Source: Bacteroidaceae bacterium
GTDB lineage: Bacteria > Bacteroidota > Bacteroidia > Bacteroidales > Bacteroidaceae
NCBI GenBank assembly: GCA_017507105.1
Contig: JAFWBM010000047.1
Span: forward strand, 1 to 64,000
Length of the DNA stretch: 64,000 nt
Reading direction: 5' to 3'
A model generated the notes under the pieces. The model did not search any database and was not told the DNA's origin. It saw only the letters and a program-made list of their open reading frames with translations. Below, one piece after another: positions 48,487 through 57,198 of the stretch (position 1 is the stretch's first letter; the number at the start of each line of letters is the position of its first letter). A program made the position numbers and the translations under genes.

Positions 48487-50478
48487 TTATGGCCTCTCTT
48501 TTATTATACCTTTCCTGTATGCAGTAAGCAAACGTTCAAGGTCGGCAATCTTAACAAGAATTCCGCGTCCTATATCTGTATCGCGAACTTTCTTGCGTTT
48601 ACCCATCATCTCCACGATCTGTGTTGTAGAATGAATATCGGTACCCTCTTTGATTGCATCTTCGGTGGATGTAAATGGAGCATGTTGCACAAGTTCAAAC
48701 CCACGACTGTGATATACAAGTGTATATCCGGCTATTCCTGTACGGTTATGGTAGACTTTTGAAAATCCTCCATCTATCACCATCAGTTTCCCATCGGCCT
48801 TTATAGGTGTCTCGCCCTTGCCTACACGTACCGGCACATGTCCGTTTATTATATGACGGTGCTCTCCAACAACACCAAACTCGTCAAGTATTCTATCGCA
48901 CACCTGAGGATTGTCGCGCAAAATATAATACCATCCTTTAGGTTCCTTTTGAACCTCTTTATCATCAAGCAGATAACGCTCAAATGTCGCCATCTTAGCC
49001 TTACCGAAGAGAGGAGATTCGGGACCGCACCACAGATACCAGAAGAAATCGGCTGCTTTTTCACGCTCCTCGGCACTCAAATCATTGTCGAAAGCCGTAC
49101 GCGCCATACGCTCAACCTTCTTCATTAACTGTTTTCCTTTAACAGTCTCTCCGTCAAAAACAACCTCACGCATAGAGCCATCTTCGTTTATAGGCACAGC
49201 TGCATGGAACATTAGATTCGAATTATATATTGCGAACATTCCTCCACGCATCAACAGACAGTTAACGTGACTTTGCAGACGCTCACTACGCATAAACGAA
49301 TGGCGCAAGCGCTCCATCAAATCGCTCTCCTCCGGTGTAAGTGCATATGGATTTTCGGGATCAAGAGTAGGCCATAGTTTATCCTTCAACTCATAGTCAT
49401 TACCATCGATATTGATAACCCCTCGCTCCTTGTCTATAAACTCCATAAGACAACGATCCATCATACCCCATTCAGGATGTGCCATTGCAATCTGTCCCGA
49501 TAATTTAAATTCTATAACAGAGACAGCCTTATGCATTTGTGCAATAAGACGCACATCCTTATCATTAAAATTGGTACGCTCCTCATCTACACGTGGCTGG
49601 TATATCTCACATGGGTCATCGGCATATTGCTCCATAGCAAAAGTAGCCAAAGGTACCATATTTATTGCATATCCATCCTCCAATGTTGTAGTGTTTGCAT
49701 CACGTAACGAGAGTCGCAACACACTTGCTATACAGCAGGTATTACCCGCAGCCGCACCCATCCATAGTACATCATGATTACCCCAAGTAATATCGACATG
49801 ATGATACTCGCATAGAGTATCCATTATATGGTGAGCACCGGGGCCGCGATCGAAAATATCGCCAAGGATATGAAGACGGTCTATCGTCAATCGCTGTATC
49901 AGATAACATAGCGCCGTTATGAAATGCTCGGCACGTCCGGTACCAATGATTGTCTCGACAATAACACTAAGGTATGCCTGTTTATTCTCTATGTCGTTGC
50001 TCTCGTGCAACAACTCCTCTATTATATATGCATACTCCTCGGGAAGACTCTTACGTACCTTGGAACGCGTATATTTCGATGAAATGTCGCGACACAATTT
50101 AATGAGTTTACTCAGCGACTCGCGGTAGTACTCCTTAGGATCTATTTCCGACTGCTTGAGTAGTTTTAGTTTACCCTCGGGATAATATATAAGCGTACAT
50201 AGATCTTTCCTCTCATCCTCACTTATTGTATCTCCAAAAAGTTCGTTTACTTTGCGTTTTATATTTCCCGATGCATTTCGCAACACATGCTCAAAAGCCT
50301 CATGCTCGCCATGAATATCGGCCATAAAATGTTCGGTAGGCTTGGGAAGATGTAGTATTGCTTCAAGATTTATTATCTCGGTTGTCACACTCGACACTGT
50401 GGGAAAATCCCGTGCCAACAGACGCAGATATCTAAGGTCTTCTTTGACCTCTTCAAGTGTCACATGCGGTTTAGCCAT
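48487..50478 (-). CDS. fbp: Fructose-1,6-bisphosphatase class III
   Basis: 663 residues, the long metallophosphatase-type FBPase of Firmicutes and Bacteroidetes. Metal-binding motifs: MADIHGEHEAFEHVLRN (about 46-62), LGDIFDRGPGAHHIMD and WGNHDVLWMGAAAG (about 233-246), with late INGHVPVRVGKGETP. Gluconeogenic conversion of fructose-1,6-bisphosphate to fructose-6-phosphate. First gene of a leftward unit with purE and ispG; consensus promoter upstream. Confidence 0.95.
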   Translation of the reverse strand: MAKPHVTLEEVKEDLRYLRLLARDFPTVSSVTTEIINLEAILHLPKPTEHFMADIHGEHEAFEHVLRNASGNIKRKVNELFGDTISEDERKDLCTLIYYPEGKLKLLKQSEIDPKEYYRESLSKLIKLCRDISSKYTRSKVRKSLPEEYAYIIEELLHESNDIENKQAYLSVIVETIIGTGRAEHFITALCYLIQRLTIDRLHILGDIFDRGPGAHHIMDTLCEYHHVDITWGNHDVLWMGAAAGNTCCIASVLRLSLRDANTTTLEDGYAINMVPLATFAMEQYADDPCEIYQPRVDEERTNFNDKDVRLIAQMHKAVSVIEFKLSGQIAMAHPEWGMMDRCLMEFIDKERGVINIDGNDYELKDKLWPTLDPENPYALTPEESDLMERLRHSFMRSERLQSHVNCLLMRGGMFAIYNSNLMFHAAVPINEDGSMREVVFDGETVKGKQLMKKVERMARTAFDNDLSAEEREKAADFFWYLWCGPESPLFGKAKMATFERYLLDDKEVQKEPKGWYYILRDNPQVCDRILDEFGVVGEHRHIINGHVPVRVGKGETPIKADGKLMVIDGGFSKVYHNRTGIAGYTLVYHSRGFELVQHAPFTSTEDAIKEGTDIHSTTQIVEMMGKRKKVRDTDIGRGILVKIADLERLLTAYRKGIIKERP

Positions 50479-50680: not shown

Positions 50681-51475
50681 TCACTGATATTTATTTTCCA
50701 TAAGCTCTACTATCCAAATACTAAATTCATAAAGAAGATAAAGCGGTCCCATTACCAAAATACATGTAACGATGTCGGGAGGAGTTATAATTGCAGCTAT
50801 TATAGCTATAAGCAGAATGGCATATTTTCGACATTCTTTAAGCATATATGAAGTTATAAGTCCTAATTTTCCAAGAAGGAATGATATCACCGGCAACTGA
50901 AAAACCAACCCCATTAGCAATGTCATCGTTGCAAATGTTGATATATAGGAGACTAACGTTATTCTATTTTCTACCATATAATCAACCTGATACGAAACAA
51001 GGAACCTAAAAGAAAAAGGGAAAAGAACAAAATAGCTTAACAACACTCCGAAAGCAAACAAGATGAATACTGTAATAAGTATAGGCACAGAGTAACGTCG
51101 TTCATTATCATATAAGGCAGGTGAAACAAATAAAAAAAACTCATACAGGATATATGGCGATGCTAGCAACAATGCTAAATAGAGACTACTTGTAATGTGT
51201 ACCATGAACTGCGAAGAGAGTTCGGTACTAATAAATCGAACATCCATCTCATCAAAACTAAAATTTACATTTAGGATTGATGATATTCCCTCTACCCAAC
51301 GATACAAACAAAAATCGTTTTTGGCAGGAGCCAACAATAGCATAAATATATCCTCTTTAAAACAAAAAATAGATATAAATAGTACTACCAATACAATAAT
51401 AATACGAAAGAGCATCTTGCGTAATACATCAAGATGCTCTCCGAATGTAAGTAGATTCTCGCTATTATTCTTCAT
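50681..51475 (-). CDS. tatC: Twin-arginine translocase subunit TatC
   Basis: 264 residues, six membrane spans. The N-terminal FGEHLDVLRKMLFRI (Glu13) and the cytoplasmic-loop motif FFLFVSPALYDNERR are the TatC elements that recognise the twin-arginine signal. It forms the receptor of the Tat export system, which moves folded proteins across the inner membrane. The start overlaps tatA by 11 bases, and tatA in turn overlaps the peptide-modification operon. No tatB is seen. About 200 bp between the stop and the fbp start region hold only AT-rich DNA. Confidence 0.95.
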   Translation of the reverse strand: MKNNSENLLTFGEHLDVLRKMLFRIIIVLVVLFISIFCFKEDIFMLLLAPAKNDFCLYRWVEGISSILNVNFSFDEMDVRFISTELSSQFMVHITSSLYLALLLASPYILYEFFLFVSPALYDNERRYSVPILITVFILFAFGVLLSYFVLFPFSFRFLVSYQVDYMVENRITLVSYISTFATMTLLMGLVFQLPVISFLLGKLGLITSYMLKECRKYAILLIAIIAAIITPPDIVTCILVMGPLYLLYEFSIWIVELMENKYQ

Positions 51476-51695
51476 TTTCTTTTTGTCCTTCCGTTACTGT
51501 TTCTTTATCAGGTTCTTGTATACTCTGATTTTCTTCGACGTTATTAGAAGTTACATCATTCATACCCTCTTTAAATTGTTTTACACCCTGACCAAGTCCA
51601 CGCATCATTTCGGGTAATTTTTTTCCACCAAACAGCAAAAGTGCAATACCTCCAATAAGTAGTAATTCAGTCGTTCCTATCATAAGAAAAATCAT
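51465..51695 (-). CDS. tatA: Twin-arginine translocase subunit TatA
   Basis: 76 residues. One membrane span (about 7-22, GTTELLLIGGIALLLFGG), the conserved FGGKKLPEMMRGLGQGVKQFKEG hinge and amphipathic helix, then an acidic tail. Forms the Tat pore. The ATG overlaps the stop of the upstream accessory gene (ATGA), and a strong Shine-Dalgarno AAAGGAGGTG lies inside the end of that gene, unusual in this genome. A second ATG at codon 5 is possible. Tat function is thus tied to expression of the Cys-rich peptide genes. Confidence 0.95.
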   Translation of the reverse strand: MIFLMIGTTELLLIGGIALLLFGGKKLPEMMRGLGQGVKQFKEGMNDVTSNNVEENQSIQEPDKETVTEGQKENEE

Positions 51696-52012
51696 AATTC
51701 ACCTCCTTTCTTAGGCATAACGAGCATAATATTGCAATTCTCAAAATTTATCTCCCAACTGCCACCATCTACACTTTCCCACTGATATTTGTCGGCCATT
51801 TTATCCCACCAACTTTGAAAATTCCTTTCCGTTTCACTCATATCTTTAACCAACTTTTCATATAGTTCAGTATTGTCGACAGTCAGAATCTTTGCTAATT
51901 CATTTAATCCGTTACGTCGTTCAAAAAACGTTTGAATCTCATTTTTTTCTTCCTCAGTAACTTTTCCTATTAGTTTCTTCATTGTATCTTTATTTCTATT
52001 ATAACCACTCAT
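51692..52012 (-). CDS. Small accessory protein of the CXXX-repeat peptide system
   Basis: 106 residues, or 96 from the ATG at 51982 (MKKLIGKVTEEEK). Helical, with FFERRNGLNELAKILTVD and NFQSWWDKMADKYQWES, then a short beta end (WEINFENCNIMLVMPKKGG). Size, position and sequence character fit what NCBI calls 'CXXX repeat peptide modification system protein' as I recall it. Role unproven; it might deliver the precursor to the enzymes. It overlaps the upstream SPASM gene by 14 bases and tatA by four. Confidence 0.7.
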   Translation of the reverse strand: MSGYNRNKDTMKKLIGKVTEEEKNEIQTFFERRNGLNELAKILTVDNTELYEKLVKDMSETERNFQSWWDKMADKYQWESVDGGSWEINFENCNIMLVMPKKGGEL

Positions 52013-52943
52013 CTCTTAAATCAAATGGATCGAGATAAGAAATATCTTTTATTTCTTCTTTATCAGATAAAAACTCTACACGTTCTCTAACACTCATCAT
52101 AAGTTCACGCGAGGCATTACGTTCAAGATGAGAAACGACACATTGTTCATGTGAAGGAGTGTTCACTTCAAACGTAGTTTTGCGATTAAGCCATATACAA
52201 CGTTTACACTGATAAGCGTCACAATGACGGCAGATAGGTGCATATTCCAAACGATAAAGTTGTGGATTTTTAATATCCAGGCCATCCACTAGCGAGCCTA
52301 TATTATATTCATTTTCATAATAAAAAGCAGGACAAACATAGAATCTACCATCAGGAGCAAGCGTAATACTATCACAGCCAGCATTGCAGTTATTCATTTT
52401 GTCAAGCATCATACGATCGGTAAGCACATTCAACTGTGCCACGAAGTCAGCAGCAAAAGAATCTTCTAGCGCTATAGAGAATTCTTTTAACACACTTCTA
52501 TATAGCTCAAAATCAACATCTGTAAATGTCTCAACGTCTGTTATTACAATATTTAGACGTCTACACATTTTAATCTTTTCTTTTATCTCGCTACACTTAC
52601 CGAATAGTTCTTTTTTATCTACGCGAAGAACGTAAACATCATCTTTATCAAACAGATATTCCTTATTCCATCCATTAAGTACAACAATATCAGCATTATT
52701 CGCATACACCGATTGATAGGAAGCTATCTTAGTGTTATCTATACTCTCCATAGCCTCAATATATTCAGCAGGTAGTTCATAATCAGGTAAGACATATTGA
52801 ACCATTAGATTCTCTTTCATCGCGAAAAGGATACCATTTTTTAGATTGTCTAATGTTATCAAAAGAGGCCTATTTTTTGTATTTGAGTAATGACAAAATG
52901 AAGTACTCGTATTGTCCAATTGAATAATGAGATATTGTAGCAT
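51999..52943 (-). CDS. SPASM protein lacking radical SAM cysteines ('CXXX repeat peptide maturase')
   Basis: 314 residues. The region where CxxxCxxC should be has only one cysteine (TSFCHYSN, near residue 17), so it should not bind the radical SAM cluster. The C-terminal ~130 residues are SPASM-like: NNCNAGCDSITLAPDGRFYVCPAFYY, then CRHCDAYQCKRC and HEQC, enough for auxiliary Fe-S clusters. It is probably a partner of the radical SAM enzyme encoded four bases upstream, comparable to other pseudo-radical-SAM partners in Bacteroidales. Chemistry unknown. Confidence 0.75.
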   Translation of the reverse strand: MLQYLIIQLDNTSTSFCHYSNTKNRPLLITLDNLKNGILFAMKENLMVQYVLPDYELPAEYIEAMESIDNTKIASYQSVYANNADIVVLNGWNKEYLFDKDDVYVLRVDKKELFGKCSEIKEKIKMCRRLNIVITDVETFTDVDFELYRSVLKEFSIALEDSFAADFVAQLNVLTDRMMLDKMNNCNAGCDSITLAPDGRFYVCPAFYYENEYNIGSLVDGLDIKNPQLYRLEYAPICRHCDAYQCKRCIWLNRKTTFEVNTPSHEQCVVSHLERNASRELMMSVRERVEFLSDKEEIKDISYLDPFDLRDEWL

Positions 52944-52947
52944 ATAT

Positions 52948-54204
52948 TTAACAAATTAAATTATTGGAATTTGATAATTTTGCATAGTCAACAGATTCTT
53001 TTTTAGCTATTCCTTTGAATTCCAATTTTCGAAAAAGTTTATTCCAATAGTAGTTGTTTGCACGTACACGAGCTTTATGCATTTTGCATATTGCTGTAGA
53101 GCGCTGATAAATTGTAGAAGTATCGGCTGAATCATAATTCTCTCCTTGACACCATGCACACCCTTCTGCCACCTCACATTCTATACACTCTAGGGTACTT
53201 TGTATACAACGGTCTAACACTAAAAAAGGACGTAGTTTGTTTTTATCTATCCCATCATAGATATTACCAATCATCCAAGCTCTTTTATCACGAAGTGAAT
53301 ATTGAGCAAATCGTGTACATGGATAGAAATTACCAGCTGCATCAATTGATAACATTTTACCGGCACCACACCAATTTTGGTTTTGCAATTTACGATCTAA
53401 TGGTTTTCCTAAATTCTCATTAAAGAAAGAACAAGTATAATCTTTATAGAATTCACCATCTATTATAGCATCAGCAAGTTCAAGCAACTGCTCTTCAAAT
53501 TTAACATCATCTTTTTCTTGCCACACATTCTCAAATACGCAGTTGATATTAACCTCATGAATCCCTAAAGAATACAAATGCAATACACTTTCTTTAATAT
53601 AAGGAATATCAGCCGAAGATATTGTTACCTTCGTTCCCGCATTAGGGAATTGTTCTAACCATAGAGGAATATTTCGTGCAACATCATCATAAGACCCGCG
53701 TTCCTCTTCTGGTGATCCCCCCCCTTTTTTCATATCAGCAGTTTTCCAAATTCGGTTTAGGTCGTGTTTACGCTTTGTTCCGTCAATAGTAATACCAATA
53801 CTCAAATGTTCAATATTCTTTTTAATAAAATTTTGCACACTTTCTGTATGATAGTTTATACCGTTTGTAGAAAAGGAGAAACGATAAGAATTAAACCAAT
53901 GGTGGTTTCTTCTATACATTTCTATTTTCACATAATCACATATTTTATCTATCAAATCAATTTCCAAAAACGGTTCACCTCCTATAAAGTCCCAAATAAC
54001 ACTTTCTTCTTTAAAATCATCTTCATGACTGAGTATATAATCAATTGCTTGTTTTGCCACCTCCCAAGTCATACGTTCATTAGAATTTTTACCTACAAGA
54101 TAGCAATACTTACAAGCAAGTTGGCAATCTTTTGTAACAATAAAAGTTATATTTCTTGCCATACCATTAGACCAGCCAGAACTATTTTCTTTAATCTTTT
54201 CCAT
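52948..54204 (-). CDS. Radical SAM/SPASM peptide maturase, CXXX-repeat target
   Basis: 418 residues. Radical SAM cluster CQLACKYC (Cys27, 31, 34), SAM-binding FIGGEPF near 74, and a SPASM domain with Cys279, 296, 333, 340, 343, 349, 352 and 373 (WCGAG, CIECEVAEGCAWCQGE). It is expected to modify the Cys-rich precursor encoded upstream, perhaps forming thioether or other carbon links; this is inference. A run of six A then eight G (53717-53724) encodes KKGGG at residues 159-163, a slippage-prone site in frame here. Matches, from memory, 'radical SAM peptide maturase, CXXX-repeat target family'. Confidence 0.88.
   Translation of the reverse strand: MEKIKENSSGWSNGMARNITFIVTKDCQLACKYCYLVGKNSNERMTWEVAKQAIDYILSHEDDFKEESVIWDFIGGEPFLEIDLIDKICDYVKIEMYRRNHHWFNSYRFSFSTNGINYHTESVQNFIKKNIEHLSIGITIDGTKRKHDLNRIWKTADMKKGGGSPEEERGSYDDVARNIPLWLEQFPNAGTKVTISSADIPYIKESVLHLYSLGIHEVNINCVFENVWQEKDDVKFEEQLLELADAIIDGEFYKDYTCSFFNENLGKPLDRKLQNQNWCGAGKMLSIDAAGNFYPCTRFAQYSLRDKRAWMIGNIYDGIDKNKLRPFLVLDRCIQSTLECIECEVAEGCAWCQGENYDSADTSTIYQRSTAICKMHKARVRANNYYWNKLFRKLEFKGIAKKESVDYAKLSNSNNLIC
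53717..53724 (-). repeat. G8 tract in the radical SAM gene
   Basis: Eight C on the plus strand followed by six T, that is A6G8 on the coding strand, in frame at residues 159-163. Loss or gain of one base would truncate the enzyme before its SPASM domain. Confidence 0.75.
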
Positions 54205-54299
54205 ACTGTCTTTAGTTTGTAGAAAGAAAGAGAATACAAAGTTACTGAGTGTAAGAAGATTTGATTATCTCACATATAACAATACAACCCCAGCAACTG

Positions 54300-54761
54300 T
54301 CAGTATATAAATCCAGAAGCTCCTGGGGCAGATGGTACTTTATATACAGAGGTACTTTTTAGATTTCCTGAATTATCGTAATAACACATATTAATAGTTT
54401 GTCTATCTGCTGATACTATGATGGCTGTATCAAATTTCCAATAAGGCTGACTGCTTCTATACTGTTGCACTAACCCTGATGTTCCTGAACAATAATAAAA
54501 ATATATAGCTTTTCCATTTTCTATGCTATAAAGCCTAAATCCATCTGAGCCATCTCCCATCACAAAACTAGGTTTACTATATTGGTAAATGCGCTCCCCT
54601 TCAAATATAAATGGACAATTATTATTAAAGCCAACAGGACCAGTTTCGCGTCCGTCTGCATATACAGTTTTCACATGTACATAGTTTATTGTAGTTTGCG
54701 ACTTAACAGAGATTGCAACACAGAATAACAATAATAATATTGATATAATTTTTGTTTTCAT
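54300..54761 (-). CDS. Secreted protein in the CXXX peptide locus, unknown
   Basis: 153 residues from MKTKIISILLL at 54761; a longer frame to 54800 lacks a sensible signal. Sec-type signal peptide ending VKSQT. The mature part is beta-rich (YVHVKTVYADGRETG, GFRLYSIENGKAIYFYYCSG, INMCYYDNSGNL) with three cysteines. No family recognised. It lies between the precursor and the radical SAM gene on the same strand, so it may be a target, carrier or immunity factor of the peptide, or an unrelated insertion. Confidence 0.6.
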   Translation of the reverse strand: MKTKIISILLLLFCVAISVKSQTTINYVHVKTVYADGRETGPVGFNNNCPFIFEGERIYQYSKPSFVMGDGSDGFRLYSIENGKAIYFYYCSGTSGLVQQYRSSQPYWKFDTAIIVSADRQTINMCYYDNSGNLKSTSVYKVPSAPGASGFIY

Positions 54762-54892
54762 ACATCTTTTTCTTTTTATCGGTTGAATCAACCAAACCAT
54801 AATATAATCGGACTATTTAAATTACATTCACTGTAATATATCCGATAACAGATTATTCTTCTTTGTTATAGTTACTAAATAGAGAATCATAA

Positions 54893-54941
54893 CTTTTATT
54901 GAGGATGCAAAATATTACATTTAAGACACCCTCAATAAAAG
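54893..54941 (-). terminator. Hairpin just after the precursor gene
   Basis: CTTTTATTGAGG (54893-54904) pairs with CCTCAATAAAAG (54930-54941), 12 bp with a 25-base loop, beginning ten bases after the precursor stop. A leaky terminator here would make much more precursor than enzyme mRNA. Confidence 0.6.
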
Positions 54942-54950
54942 CTCCAGATA

Positions 54951-55211
54951 TTAGTACTTTGAACTACTTTTGCACCCGCCACTACAAGAACTAAAACAAT
55001 TCTGTAAACATAGACGATCGCAACCATTAGAACAAGAAGTATAGCAAGTGTTTGCACATCCGTATTTGCAGCCCATAGGTTCACCTTCAGCAGCTAGAGA
55101 AATAAGAGATGTATTTGCCAATACAATTGCACCAAGAAAGGGAAGAGCTCCCTTTGCCGCTTTCTTAAAGAATTCACGACGACTCTGAAGTTCATTTTTC
55201 TTATTTTCCAT
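54951..55211 (-). CDS. Twin-arginine, CXXX-repeat Cys-rich precursor peptide
   Basis: 86 residues. The N-terminus has a twin-arginine motif (QSRREFFKKAAKG, Arg11-Arg12) and a hydrophobic stretch (about 21-40) with a possible cleavage site near SLAAEG. The C-terminal core carries nine cysteines at 48, 52, 56, 60, 64, 68, 72, 76 and 80, exactly every fourth residue, which would line up as a repeating face. This fits the 'CXXX repeat' targets of radical SAM maturases. The enzymes and a complete TatA/TatC pair are encoded downstream on the same strand, so the peptide is probably modified and folded inside the cell and exported by Tat. Activity unknown. Confidence 0.88.
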   Translation of the reverse strand: MENKKNELQSRREFFKKAAKGALPFLGAIVLANTSLISLAAEGEPMGCKYGCANTCYTSCSNGCDRLCLQNCFSSCSGGCKSSSKY

Positions 55212-55287
55212 AATTATAGAAATTAAGTTGCCTATGAACTCCCAAATTCGGCGTTAAACAATAGATTAAATAAGACAAAATAAAAAA

Positions 55288-55517
55288 GACGTGGGAGTTT
55301 CTACTTCTCGCTTATCCCAGTCTTCAGGCTCTCGCATTGCCTCCACTCAAGGATAAGCAACGCAGTCAGCCCACGTCGTGATATATACAATCTCATTTAC
55401 CACTTTTTTATGGTAAACAATTAATATACCCAACGCGGACGTTCCGTTGCCGTATCTTCTTGAGTGGCTCAAATTTGCGAGATTCGAAGACTCGAAGAAT
55501 TACGTTCGTAAACGTCC
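55288..55517. ncRNA. Large imperfect inverted repeat; two divergent homologous structured RNAs
   Basis: In 511 bp without a gene. The left half read on the minus strand (55377 to 55288) and the right half read on the plus strand (55437 to 55517) are related: both contain CTTGAGTGG, then TGCGAGA and GAAGACT in the same order. Each is closed by its own stem: GACGTGGG/CCCACGTC (55288-55295, 55370-55377) with inner GCTTATCC/GGATAAGC, and GGACGTT/AACGTCC (55437-55443, 55511-55517) with inner CGTA/TACG. Each outward end runs into T-rich DNA (TTTTTTATTTT and TTTTCTAAT). The centre holds TTTACCA/TGGTAAA (55396-55402, 55411-55417). They may be outward small RNAs, or one long hairpin in a minus-strand leader of the precursor. 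Confidence 0.6.
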
Positions 55518-55623
55518 TTTTCTAATGAAAATAATTATGCCCACATATAAATATAAAACACAACTATTAACATTATATCTAAAATGTCACCCTACCAGCC
55601 CTTAGGACTGACTGAGTATATTG

Positions 55624-55722: not shown

Positions 55723-57198
55723 TCACTCTTTACGTAGACGAGCTACAGGAATATGAAGTTGCTCACGATATTTTGCCACTGTACGGCGAGCCATTGTAAA
55801 CCCTTGTTCCTGAAGTTTCTCCATAAGTTCAGAGTCGGTAAGAGGATTACCCTTATCTTCATTATCCACAAGTTCTTGCAGGCTACGATGCAGTTCGCGC
55901 ACCGATAGTTGCGCACCATCACTCATTACCACTCCATCACTAAAGAAATACTTTATAGAATATACCCCCCAGGGTAACTGTACATATTTACTATTGCTGA
56001 CACGCGAGATGGTAGATATATCGTATCCGGTTTTCTTGGCAACGTCATCAAGAATCATCGGACGCAACTGCGATTCATCACCTCCACTCAATAAAAATGG
56101 GGTTTGCATGGCAACTATGGCATTCATAGTATCTAAAAGGGTTGTCTCGCGTTGTTTTACAGCACTTATAAACCCTTTGGCCGCCTCAATCTTCTGTTTA
56201 AGAAATTGAGCTGCAGCCTTGCTCTCGCTATTACCACTCTGTATCTGTTCATCAAGCATGCGTTGATAATCATTGCTCACACGAAGTTCGGGAACAAACA
56301 TATTATTCAGTTGAACCGAGATACTCTCTCCTTGCACATCCACAACAAAGTCCGGTATTATCTGCTGACGACTTGTACCCAGACTTTCAGTGAGTGAGGC
56401 TCCTGGGCGTGGATTGAGGCGCGTAATCTCTACAATGGCCTTACGACAGAGCTCATCATTTACACCCAATTTAGCAGGGAGGCCATCCCACCTTTTTTTA
56501 CTGAAGTCATCATAATAATCGGCAACAATACGTTTCTGCAACAAGATGGATGCAAGAGCCTCATCATCCCCTTTTGCCCCCTCTTGAGCCGAGTTTAACT
56601 GCAACAATAGACACTCTTGCAAAGAACGTGCTCCAATACCGGGAGGGTCGAAAGATTGTATTTGTTTAAGCACACCCTCTATCTGCGAGATGGTCACATC
56701 AAGATTATAATATATCGTAAGCTCGTCCTCTATCTCTATTAGAGGCTTGTGCAACAGGCCATCCTCGTCGAGCGAACCTATGAGATACTCACCTATAGCA
56801 CGTTCCTTATCATCAAGCGACAACTCGCCAAGCTGTTCCAGCAGATTATCACCAAAAGAGGTGTCGGCCGATAAAGGTATCTCCTCGGGCAATTCTCCGC
56901 GATTATGATACTCCCAACCATTATAATCGGGGATATCATCCTCGTTTCTATAATCATCAGCCGAATTGGCATATACAGTTTCATCATAGCCATCGCTATC
57001 AGACGAATTGAGTGACACACTCTGCTCTGATTCAATAACTTCAAGTGCCGGATTATCAATAACCTCGCTACGCAATTTATCCTCGAGCTCTACTGTAGTG
57101 AGTTCGAGAAGACGTACATACATAACCTGCTGGGGTGATAAAGTCTGTATCTGCGTCTGTATCTGTGATTGTGTCTGTGTAAGAGAACTCTTTGCCAT
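55723..57198 (-). CDS. rpoN: RNA polymerase sigma-54 factor
   Basis: 491 residues. Region I is Gln-rich (TQTQSQIQTQIQTLSPQQVMYVRLLEL), followed by the acidic region II and the core-binding domain (FDPPGIGARSLQECLLLQL). The RpoN box ARRTVAKYREQLHIP is at about residues 473-487. Directs polymerase to -24/-12 promoters with enhancer-binding activators. It follows the DUF4292 gene by 40 bases. No sigma-54 promoter was found in this window that I would defend. Confidence 0.96.
   Translation of the reverse strand: MAKSSLTQTQSQIQTQIQTLSPQQVMYVRLLELTTVELEDKLRSEVIDNPALEVIESEQSVSLNSSDSDGYDETVYANSADDYRNEDDIPDYNGWEYHNRGELPEEIPLSADTSFGDNLLEQLGELSLDDKERAIGEYLIGSLDEDGLLHKPLIEIEDELTIYYNLDVTISQIEGVLKQIQSFDPPGIGARSLQECLLLQLNSAQEGAKGDDEALASILLQKRIVADYYDDFSKKRWDGLPAKLGVNDELCRKAIVEITRLNPRPGASLTESLGTSRQQIIPDFVVDVQGESISVQLNNMFVPELRVSNDYQRMLDEQIQSGNSESKAAAQFLKQKIEAAKGFISAVKQRETTLLDTMNAIVAMQTPFLLSGGDESQLRPMILDDVAKKTGYDISTISRVSNSKYVQLPWGVYSIKYFFSDGVVMSDGAQLSVRELHRSLQELVDNEDKGNPLTDSELMEKLQEQGFTMARRTVAKYREQLHIPVARLRKE

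Follow-up and report, generated by a model that had tools for sequence, protein, structure and literature searches.

The described system closest to the locus reported here is the CXXX-repeat system of NCBIfam (TIGR04114–TIGR04119), an annotation family whose one-line descriptions do not include twin-arginine translocation (Tat). Its enzymes are related to the PapB/ranthipeptide maturases, and PapB works on CX3D motifs, in which it links the Cys to the Asp at the fourth position after it (PMC9413430). In Bacillus subtilis, TatAd and TatCd are encoded together with PhoD, the substrate in which this TatA/TatC pair is specialised (PMC3827258), and Cys-rich precursors with an export signal occur among the bufferins and other ribosomally synthesised and post-translationally modified peptides (RiPPs) matured by multinuclear non-heme iron-dependent oxidases (MNIOs) (PMC12452194). 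We analysed a stretch of 64,000 nucleotides (the window; positions 1 to 64,000 of contig JAFWBM010000047.1, assembly GCA_017507105.1) from a Bacteroidaceae bacterium, in which a cassette on the minus strand (55211–50681, reading from the precursor gene to tatC) unites a Cys-rich precursor peptide, a radical S-adenosylmethionine (SAM)/SPASM maturase, a degenerate partner of this enzyme and a small accessory protein with tatA and tatC. We consider it likely that tatA, tatC and the CXXX maturation genes together constitute a RiPP system that has a Tat translocase dedicated to it.

As in the CXXX-repeat system, the maturase, the partner and the small protein exceed their family cut-offs and the precursor has a Cys at every fourth position; what the window adds is its own tatAC pair and a distinct TatC lineage. 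The PapB CX3D link has the same four-residue spacing (PMC9413430), whereas the window has a Cys four residues on, a pseudo-enzyme partner, a Tat-type leader and a cross-link that is predicted only. PhoD, in contrast, is an enzyme and not a maturase-modified Cys-repeat peptide, and a radical SAM maturase goes unmentioned in the accessible sections on the Bacillus system (PMC3827258). The bufferins and other MNIO-modified RiPPs differ from the window in their Sec signals and enzyme class, and the accessible text on them mentions no private translocase (PMC12452194). Among the top-ranked results of our search of the open-access literature, with subscription papers mostly outside its scope, there was no study of the CXXX maturation genes or of a RiPP served by a Tat system of its own, in agreement with the original prediction, made from the DNA alone, that the peptide families are only named in annotation. 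The maturation genes are already known as an annotation family, while their combination with a dedicated Tat is new to us and appears well supported by sequence comparison.

The association of tatAC with the maturase recurs in two samples: the best 80 of 378 maturase relatives (the named loci) and 151 genomes of the family, 17 of which have TIGR04115 over cut-off and 123 a TatC. The samples overlap, apparently at 10 of the 17 loci. TatC follows the small gene in 61 of the 80 named loci (another 7 end too early), and in 14 of the 17 positive family genomes tatC lies within 8 kb of the maturase on the same contig, the distance in one of them (G077) being 7.7 kb. The gene order in the family loci is maturase, partner, small protein, TatA and TatC, with precursors, duplicates or other genes intervening in some. 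A 15th family genome (G134) has a tatAC cassette whose contig breaks off short of the maturase (L048), plus a tatAC-free locus, and the remaining two (G011, G110) have no cassette tatAC. Two full-length TatCs were present in 12 of the 17 TIGR04115-positive genomes vs 3 of the 134 negative ones (Fisher p 1.4e-11), an excess that partly restates the adjacency because the extra copy is the cassette copy. The original prediction had proposed a survey of genomes for CXXX precursors with adjacent tatAC, and both samples contain such loci.

Cassette TatCs also form a lineage of their own. In a tree of 105 distinct TatCs (66 from cassettes and 39 chosen others, with fragments below 200 aa dropped), one branch parts all 66 from the 39 with weak support (28), and 61 of the 66 form a single clade with a Shimodaira–Hasegawa-like approximate likelihood ratio test (SH-aLRT) value of 96. 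At position 12 of the window TatC, G occurs in 60 of 66 cassette TatCs vs W in all 34 housekeeping TatCs of the family that were examined, and at position 193, Q occurs in 59 of 66 vs E in 33 of 34. W and E are kept in the five cassette copies that fall outside the main clade. The transmembrane Glu of TatC (Glu170 in E. coli) is widely conserved. Q193 of the window TatC aligns with Glu170 of the solved TatC chain 9dzz, which we take to be that of E. coli, so that the window protein is without this Glu, and its kinship to the TatC family stands. V17 aligns with Glu15 of the solved TatC; loss of the Glu15 equivalent was considered as a further mark of cassette copies and rejected as not exclusive, with V or A also found in some housekeeping TatCs.

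The window precursor carries SRREFFKK at residues 10–17, of which SRREFFK fits a motif of the S/T-R-R-x-F-L-K type. Next comes a moderately hydrophobic segment that includes LP, with a hydropathy averaging 1.55 across residues 21–34, and by eye a probable cleavage site for signal peptidase I lies around residues 40–41. Nine Cys at residues 48, 52, 56, 60, 64, 68, 72, 76 and 80 then repeat with a period of exactly four, and both the twin-arginine signal and the Cys period of the original prediction are borne out by the sequence. The precursor scored 42.6 bits against TIGR04117, under the cut-off of 50; on the precursors of seven relatives the same model passed five (50.1 to 65.9) and failed two (31.8 and 18.5). 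Because its sequence kinship to the relatives' precursors is clear, we regard it as a short family member and not as an outsider. It is the one precursor of the CXXX kind found in the window genome.

Near the maturases of the 80 named loci and the window, we collected 141 candidate open reading frames (ORFs) with a Cys array. RRxF[FLIM] is present in 127 of them, and 2137 of the 2499 Cys-to-Cys steps in these 127 measure exactly four residues, a recurrence that argues against chance as the source of the Cys and RR pattern. Among the other 14, five have RR with a close variant containing L, and the remainder, by eye, consists mostly of fragments or non-precursors. The way the 127 were chosen dictates the percentages for the two R and the first F, but not the residues around them: S, T, N or D precedes RR in 123 of the 127 and K or R stands at +5 in 125, in agreement with the published Tat motif (PMC3383694). 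[LIV]P is found at +12/+13 in 117 of these Tat-type precursors. The number of Cys per precursor has a median of 15 and reaches 62, and repeat positions 2 and 3 are mainly small residues (G, S, T, N). Under one loose rule the cleavage regions were divided into 78 AxA-like, 44 lipobox-like and 5 that were neither; under a second rule 37 precursors were lipobox-like, and 20 of these have Cys-x(1,2) followed by two acidic residues, resembling the signal C-x-K-(D/E)2 for surface export in Bacteroidetes (PMC5080379). We also considered whether loci without TatC have lipoprotein-type precursors. Among loci with precursors, lipobox-only ones made up 9 of 17 without TatC vs 13 of 58 with it, a leaning at most, as scored by a permissive rule that visibly miscalls some precursors.

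Two precursor arrangements stood out in this set. One locus (L032, 6261–7511) encodes a Tat-type precursor with a YVDLGLS-type domain between two Cys arrays; the domain looks like the Fibrobacter major paralogous domain, and Pfam gave no match for the fused protein at 1e-5. Of 81 loci examined, 16 have a member of an ORF family with a similar domain in the neighbourhood of the maturase, mostly upstream. Another cassette (L131, 12727–13754) has duplicated small-protein and TatA-like genes and contains five precursors.

The radical SAM enzyme of the window has CxxxCxxC at residues 27-31-34 and is 69–80% identical to 15 relatives. Its best solved sequence relative is 5wgg (E 2.9e-27) and its second-best NCBIfam match is PapB (183.5 bits, under the cut-off of 340). 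The partner is without CxxxCxxC and has, in its second half, seven Cys (186, 204, 238, 241, 246, 249 and 268) that are invariant among 50 relatives and that we take to be a SPASM pattern. It had been described in the original prediction as cluster-less, which is wrong: the missing CxxxCxxC and the retained SPASM-type Cys indicate a pseudo-radical-SAM protein that still has its ligands for auxiliary clusters. Its structural model (predicted local distance difference test score, pLDDT, 92.9) gave 5why and 5wgg as best PDB matches, followed by anaerobic sulfatase maturases. The protein of 5why/5wgg is a thioether-forming maturase, presumably CteB. The small protein was modelled (pLDDT 88.5) as a long helical hairpin with three strands, an outline that does not seem to match the PqqD-like winged helix of a RiPP recognition element; Foldseek returned no match under 0.001, the VIA list held mostly helical hairpins and no convincing solved relative was found in either. 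In two genomes of another family (L158, L159) the small protein is fused to the partner in one chain. Tandem pairs of TIGR04115-type maturases, the first copy being more diverged, were seen in two loci (L046, 7771–10103; L179, 1462–3869). A defence function was considered and rejected, the radical SAM matches to pVip being two and weak (31.7 and 22.6 bits).

By analogy with the nearest characterised relatives, the cross-links on the Cys array would most likely be thioethers, the kinship of the enzyme to the thioether class (ranthipeptides and sactipeptides) being one of sequence, to PapB and 5wgg only. An alternative is that the array is a metal- or Fe-S-binding, metallothionein-like protein loaded in the cytoplasm, with the radical SAM pair making a minor or different change. 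The very high Cys content would suit such a protein, bufferins, as Cys-rich signal-bearing RiPPs, chelate copper (PMC12452194), and the loading of cofactors before export is a classical reason for using Tat. The four-residue period, the small residues at positions 2 and 3 and the recurrent SPASM pair fit cross-linking better, however, and among the 16 most recurrent neighbour families shown none looked metal-related by eye; we consider metal binding unlikely.

Only one Tat system was found in the window genome (2.1 Mb in 52 contigs, 93.6% complete), its single TatC match and its single TatA-family match at E up to 0.1 both being located in the cassette. A second tatAC pair, which the original prediction had named as a finding that would speak against it, was looked for in this 93.6% complete assembly and not found. 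The cassette TatC is also the sole TatC in three other genomes (G099, G125, G546). Across the genus, TatC was found in 14 of 44 genomes and in 2 of the 11 with a completeness of 90% or more and a contamination of 5% or less; it was not found in 30 of the 44, many of them incomplete. TIGR04115 occurs in 3 of the 44, each time with a cassette TatC, and the third carrier (G574, 7% contaminated) has two further TatCs besides the cassette copy.

Several observations weigh against a dedicated translocase. Among the 73 named loci with a TatC or with at least 4 kb of downstream sequence, 12 are without TatC, with TatA retained in 3, and those TatC-free loci in which precursors were found still have RR; a private Tat is therefore not obligatory. 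TIGR04115 is present in 6 of 395 genomes of the phylum, and none of the five besides the window genome, all from other families, has a cassette tatAC. In E. coli, E170A leaves transport inactive with the assembled translocon locked, and Glu170 has been placed at cargo release to TatA (PMC10092561); the cassette TatC has Q at this position. The Tat-signal profiles PF10518 and TIGR01409 gave zero matches in the window genome, the precursor included, although this null result says little about other Tat substrates because the profiles missed the precursor too. Tight coevolution of maturase and TatC was looked for through distances and not found: maturase and cassette TatC distances correlate with r 0.198 (n = 60; 0 of 1000 permutations as high) and r -0.003 (n = 11), maturase and housekeeping TatC distances with r 0.253, and cassette and housekeeping TatC distances with r 0.666 (n = 11), which indicates that the cassette TatC tracks the host lineage and not the enzyme. 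TatC presence takes 9 changes on the maturase tree vs a shuffled mean of 13.1.

Some of these points would also suit a general Tat for many substrates, perhaps including the peptide, whose genes came to lie next to the RiPP genes by chance. In the window genome, where no other Tat was found, any Tat substrate would have to use the tatAC of the cassette; the distances of the cassette TatC follow those of housekeeping TatC, and the signal profiles are too weak here to exclude further substrates. This explanation sits poorly with an association that holds across most named loci and also in genomes with a separate TatC (12 of 17), with the place of the cassette TatCs in the tree and their own residue signature, and with the many, often incomplete, genus genomes in which no TatC was found. 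We give it a small chance of being correct.

A natural control for the role of the twin arginine comes from relatives with a different exporter. In three genomes of another Bacteroidota family (L160–L162) and on an Anaerococcus plasmid (L181), a full ATP-binding cassette (ABC) exporter adjoins a maturase of the same family (TIGR04115 over cut-off). The three genomes, which carry a TatC elsewhere, yielded no cassette tatAC, and none was annotated in the plasmid stretches viewed. The presumed precursors of these four loci, chosen by position and by four or five Cys spaced four residues apart, are without RRxF, and the leaders of L160–L162 keep LP. Because these relatives have presumed precursors without RRxFF, the maturase family does not need this motif. 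Conversely, in Tat-type loci an ABC exporter is never directly beside the maturase; matches were confined to L091 and to L039/L123 (the same genome), about 4 to 7 kb away. Four ABC loci are few, and the direction is clear: RR appears to travel with Tat and LP with the maturase. That RRxFF would be a recognition site for the maturase only, with the precursor leaving through Sec and tatAC doing something else, we consider improbable, since the conservation of the leader (RR, FF and LP) does exceed what a Tat signal to our knowledge usually needs (the RR and first F percentages being fixed by selection) and V17 does stand at the Glu15-aligned position of the window TatC, but the four ABC-type relatives have presumed precursors without the motif, two loci of a further family without cassette tatAC (L158, L159) keep RR with a lipobox, by eye, in genomes with a TatC elsewhere, and the residues flanking RR fit the Tat motif.

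The plasmid locus (Anaerococcus prevotii pAPRE01) is unusual in other respects. Its maturase and partner are fused in one 728-aa chain that lies beside the ABC exporter and class III lanthipeptide genes, and a homologue of the small protein, recognised by eye, is split over two reading frames (2392–2650). The small protein had been considered as a Tat chaperone only, which this homologue in an ABC-type locus led us to reject as a firm claim; no such homologue was found in the other three ABC-type loci.

Together, the recurrence beside the maturase, the separate TatC lineage, the sole Tat of the window genome and the exchange of leader with exporter in ABC-type loci favour the proposal, first made in the original prediction, of a RiPP system with its own Tat, of which the account of the partner's SPASM region and the gene list needed correction. 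As regards modification, Tat transport, the order of events and the fate of the product, we infer the following course. The N-terminus of the precursor would double as maturase leader and Tat signal. The TIGR04115 enzyme, its pseudo-radical-SAM partner and the small protein would modify the four-residue Cys array in the cytoplasm, and the stiffened product would be handed as folded cargo to the adjacent TatAC, a route that would give time to complete modification before export. Signal peptidase would then free the product into the periplasm, while relatives of the lipobox type would receive a lipid and, where acidic residues follow the Cys, be displayed at the cell surface. The broadest form of this proposal seems to us evenly balanced between right and wrong: a RiPP class exported finished, cross-linked and folded through a private and diverged Tat (TatC Glu to Gln), whose core joins either Tat, with an RR leader, or an ABC exporter, without one, and some of whose members are lipidated on the surface of gut Bacteroidales.

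For RiPPs with export signals, it has to be explained how export is held back until modification is done, and the authors of the MNIO work raise the problem of premature export for Sec-exported RiPPs (PMC12452194). A private Tat for folded cargo would answer it and, in contrast to the Sec route of those peptides, would solve the timing directly. Genomes with the cassette as their sole Tat would offer a clean setting of one translocase with perhaps one substrate, and the role of the TatC glutamate could be studied in natural cassette variants. If true, the proposal would also give a function to a family that, in the literature searched, has names only, in gut and rumen bacteria, cultured species included. 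Cultured carriers of a cassette tatC are Leyella stercorea DSM 18206 (L140), Xylanibacter rarus strain 109 (L100) and Xylanibacter caecicola PCHR (L080).

The genes of the cassette are listed in Table 1. It is flanked by a sigma-54 gene (55723–57198) and a fructose-bisphosphatase gene (48487–50478). The gap between the radical SAM gene and the partner gene is 4 bases, and partner, small protein, tatA and tatC overlap successively by 14, 4 and 11 bases; coordinates and family profile matches confirm the genes, strand and overlaps first read from the DNA. That gene list had missed a 166-aa ORF that separates the precursor from the radical SAM gene, with gaps of 150 and 95 bases on its two sides. 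The ORF has a Sec-type signal, by eye, and is similar to just one other neighbour ORF among the loci compared; by this comparison of neighbour families it is not a conserved component of the locus. A weak terminator-like hairpin lies at 54326–54313 (two such sites in the region vs 1.9 expected), and no match to the Bacteroides-type promoter consensus was found inside the locus. Judged from these sequence features, co-transcription of the precursor with the modification enzymes across the 166-aa ORF is plausible.

Table 1. Genes of the cassette, in reading order, with their positions in the window.
Feature	Position	Strand	Assignment
Precursor, 86 aa	54951–55211	minus	TIGR04117, 42.6 bits (under the cut-off of 50)
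166-aa ORF	54300–54800	minus	Between precursor and radical SAM gene
Radical SAM/SPASM peptide maturase	52948–54204	minus	TIGR04115, 629 bits (cut-off 350)
Degenerate radical SAM/SPASM partner	51999–52943	minus	TIGR04119, 243 bits (cut-off 150)
Small accessory protein	51692–52012	minus	TIGR04116, 97 bits (cut-off 50)
tatA	51465–51695	minus	TIGR01411 (tatAE), 64.7 bits (cut-off 53.9); PF02416, 55.1 bits (over cut-off)
tatC, cassette clade	50681–51475	minus	TIGR00945, 172.2 bits (cut-off 132.7); PF00902, 210.6 bits (over cut-off)

In phage, plasmid and viral collections, the maturase search recovered one plasmid member (46.8% identity), one unannotated contig of a phage set (79%) and one distant viral locus; no further member was found with the Anaerococcus query. 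The 79% identical maturase (L196; MT837480.1, 2749–3945) comes from an unverified 6.8-kb record labelled "Bacteriophage sp." from human faeces, which is more likely bacterial DNA. The distant viral locus (L183, 4336–7227; a viral contig from IMG/VR) encodes a maturase relative with 32% identity whose frame contains six TAG codons at Gln-like places, and a CXXX-array protein without a twin-arginine signal lies near it; the pair of maturase and CXXX-array protein may thus belong to a phage in which TAG is recoded.

Upstream of the precursor gene, on the minus strand at 55279–55522, we observed a conserved element some 240 nt long, RNA-like and rod-shaped in its predicted fold, that ends in a hairpin and a T run. 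Folding of a 136-nt piece gave a z of -4.9. Across nine sequences, two-sided changes were found in 11 of 65 predicted pairs, with a slightly unfavourable covariation term (+0.31), and Rfam gave no match. DNA matches to the element, some very short, are present in 19 of the 44 genus genomes, and in two cassette-free genomes (L187, L188) it stands in other gene contexts. In shape, the element resembles 6S RNA.

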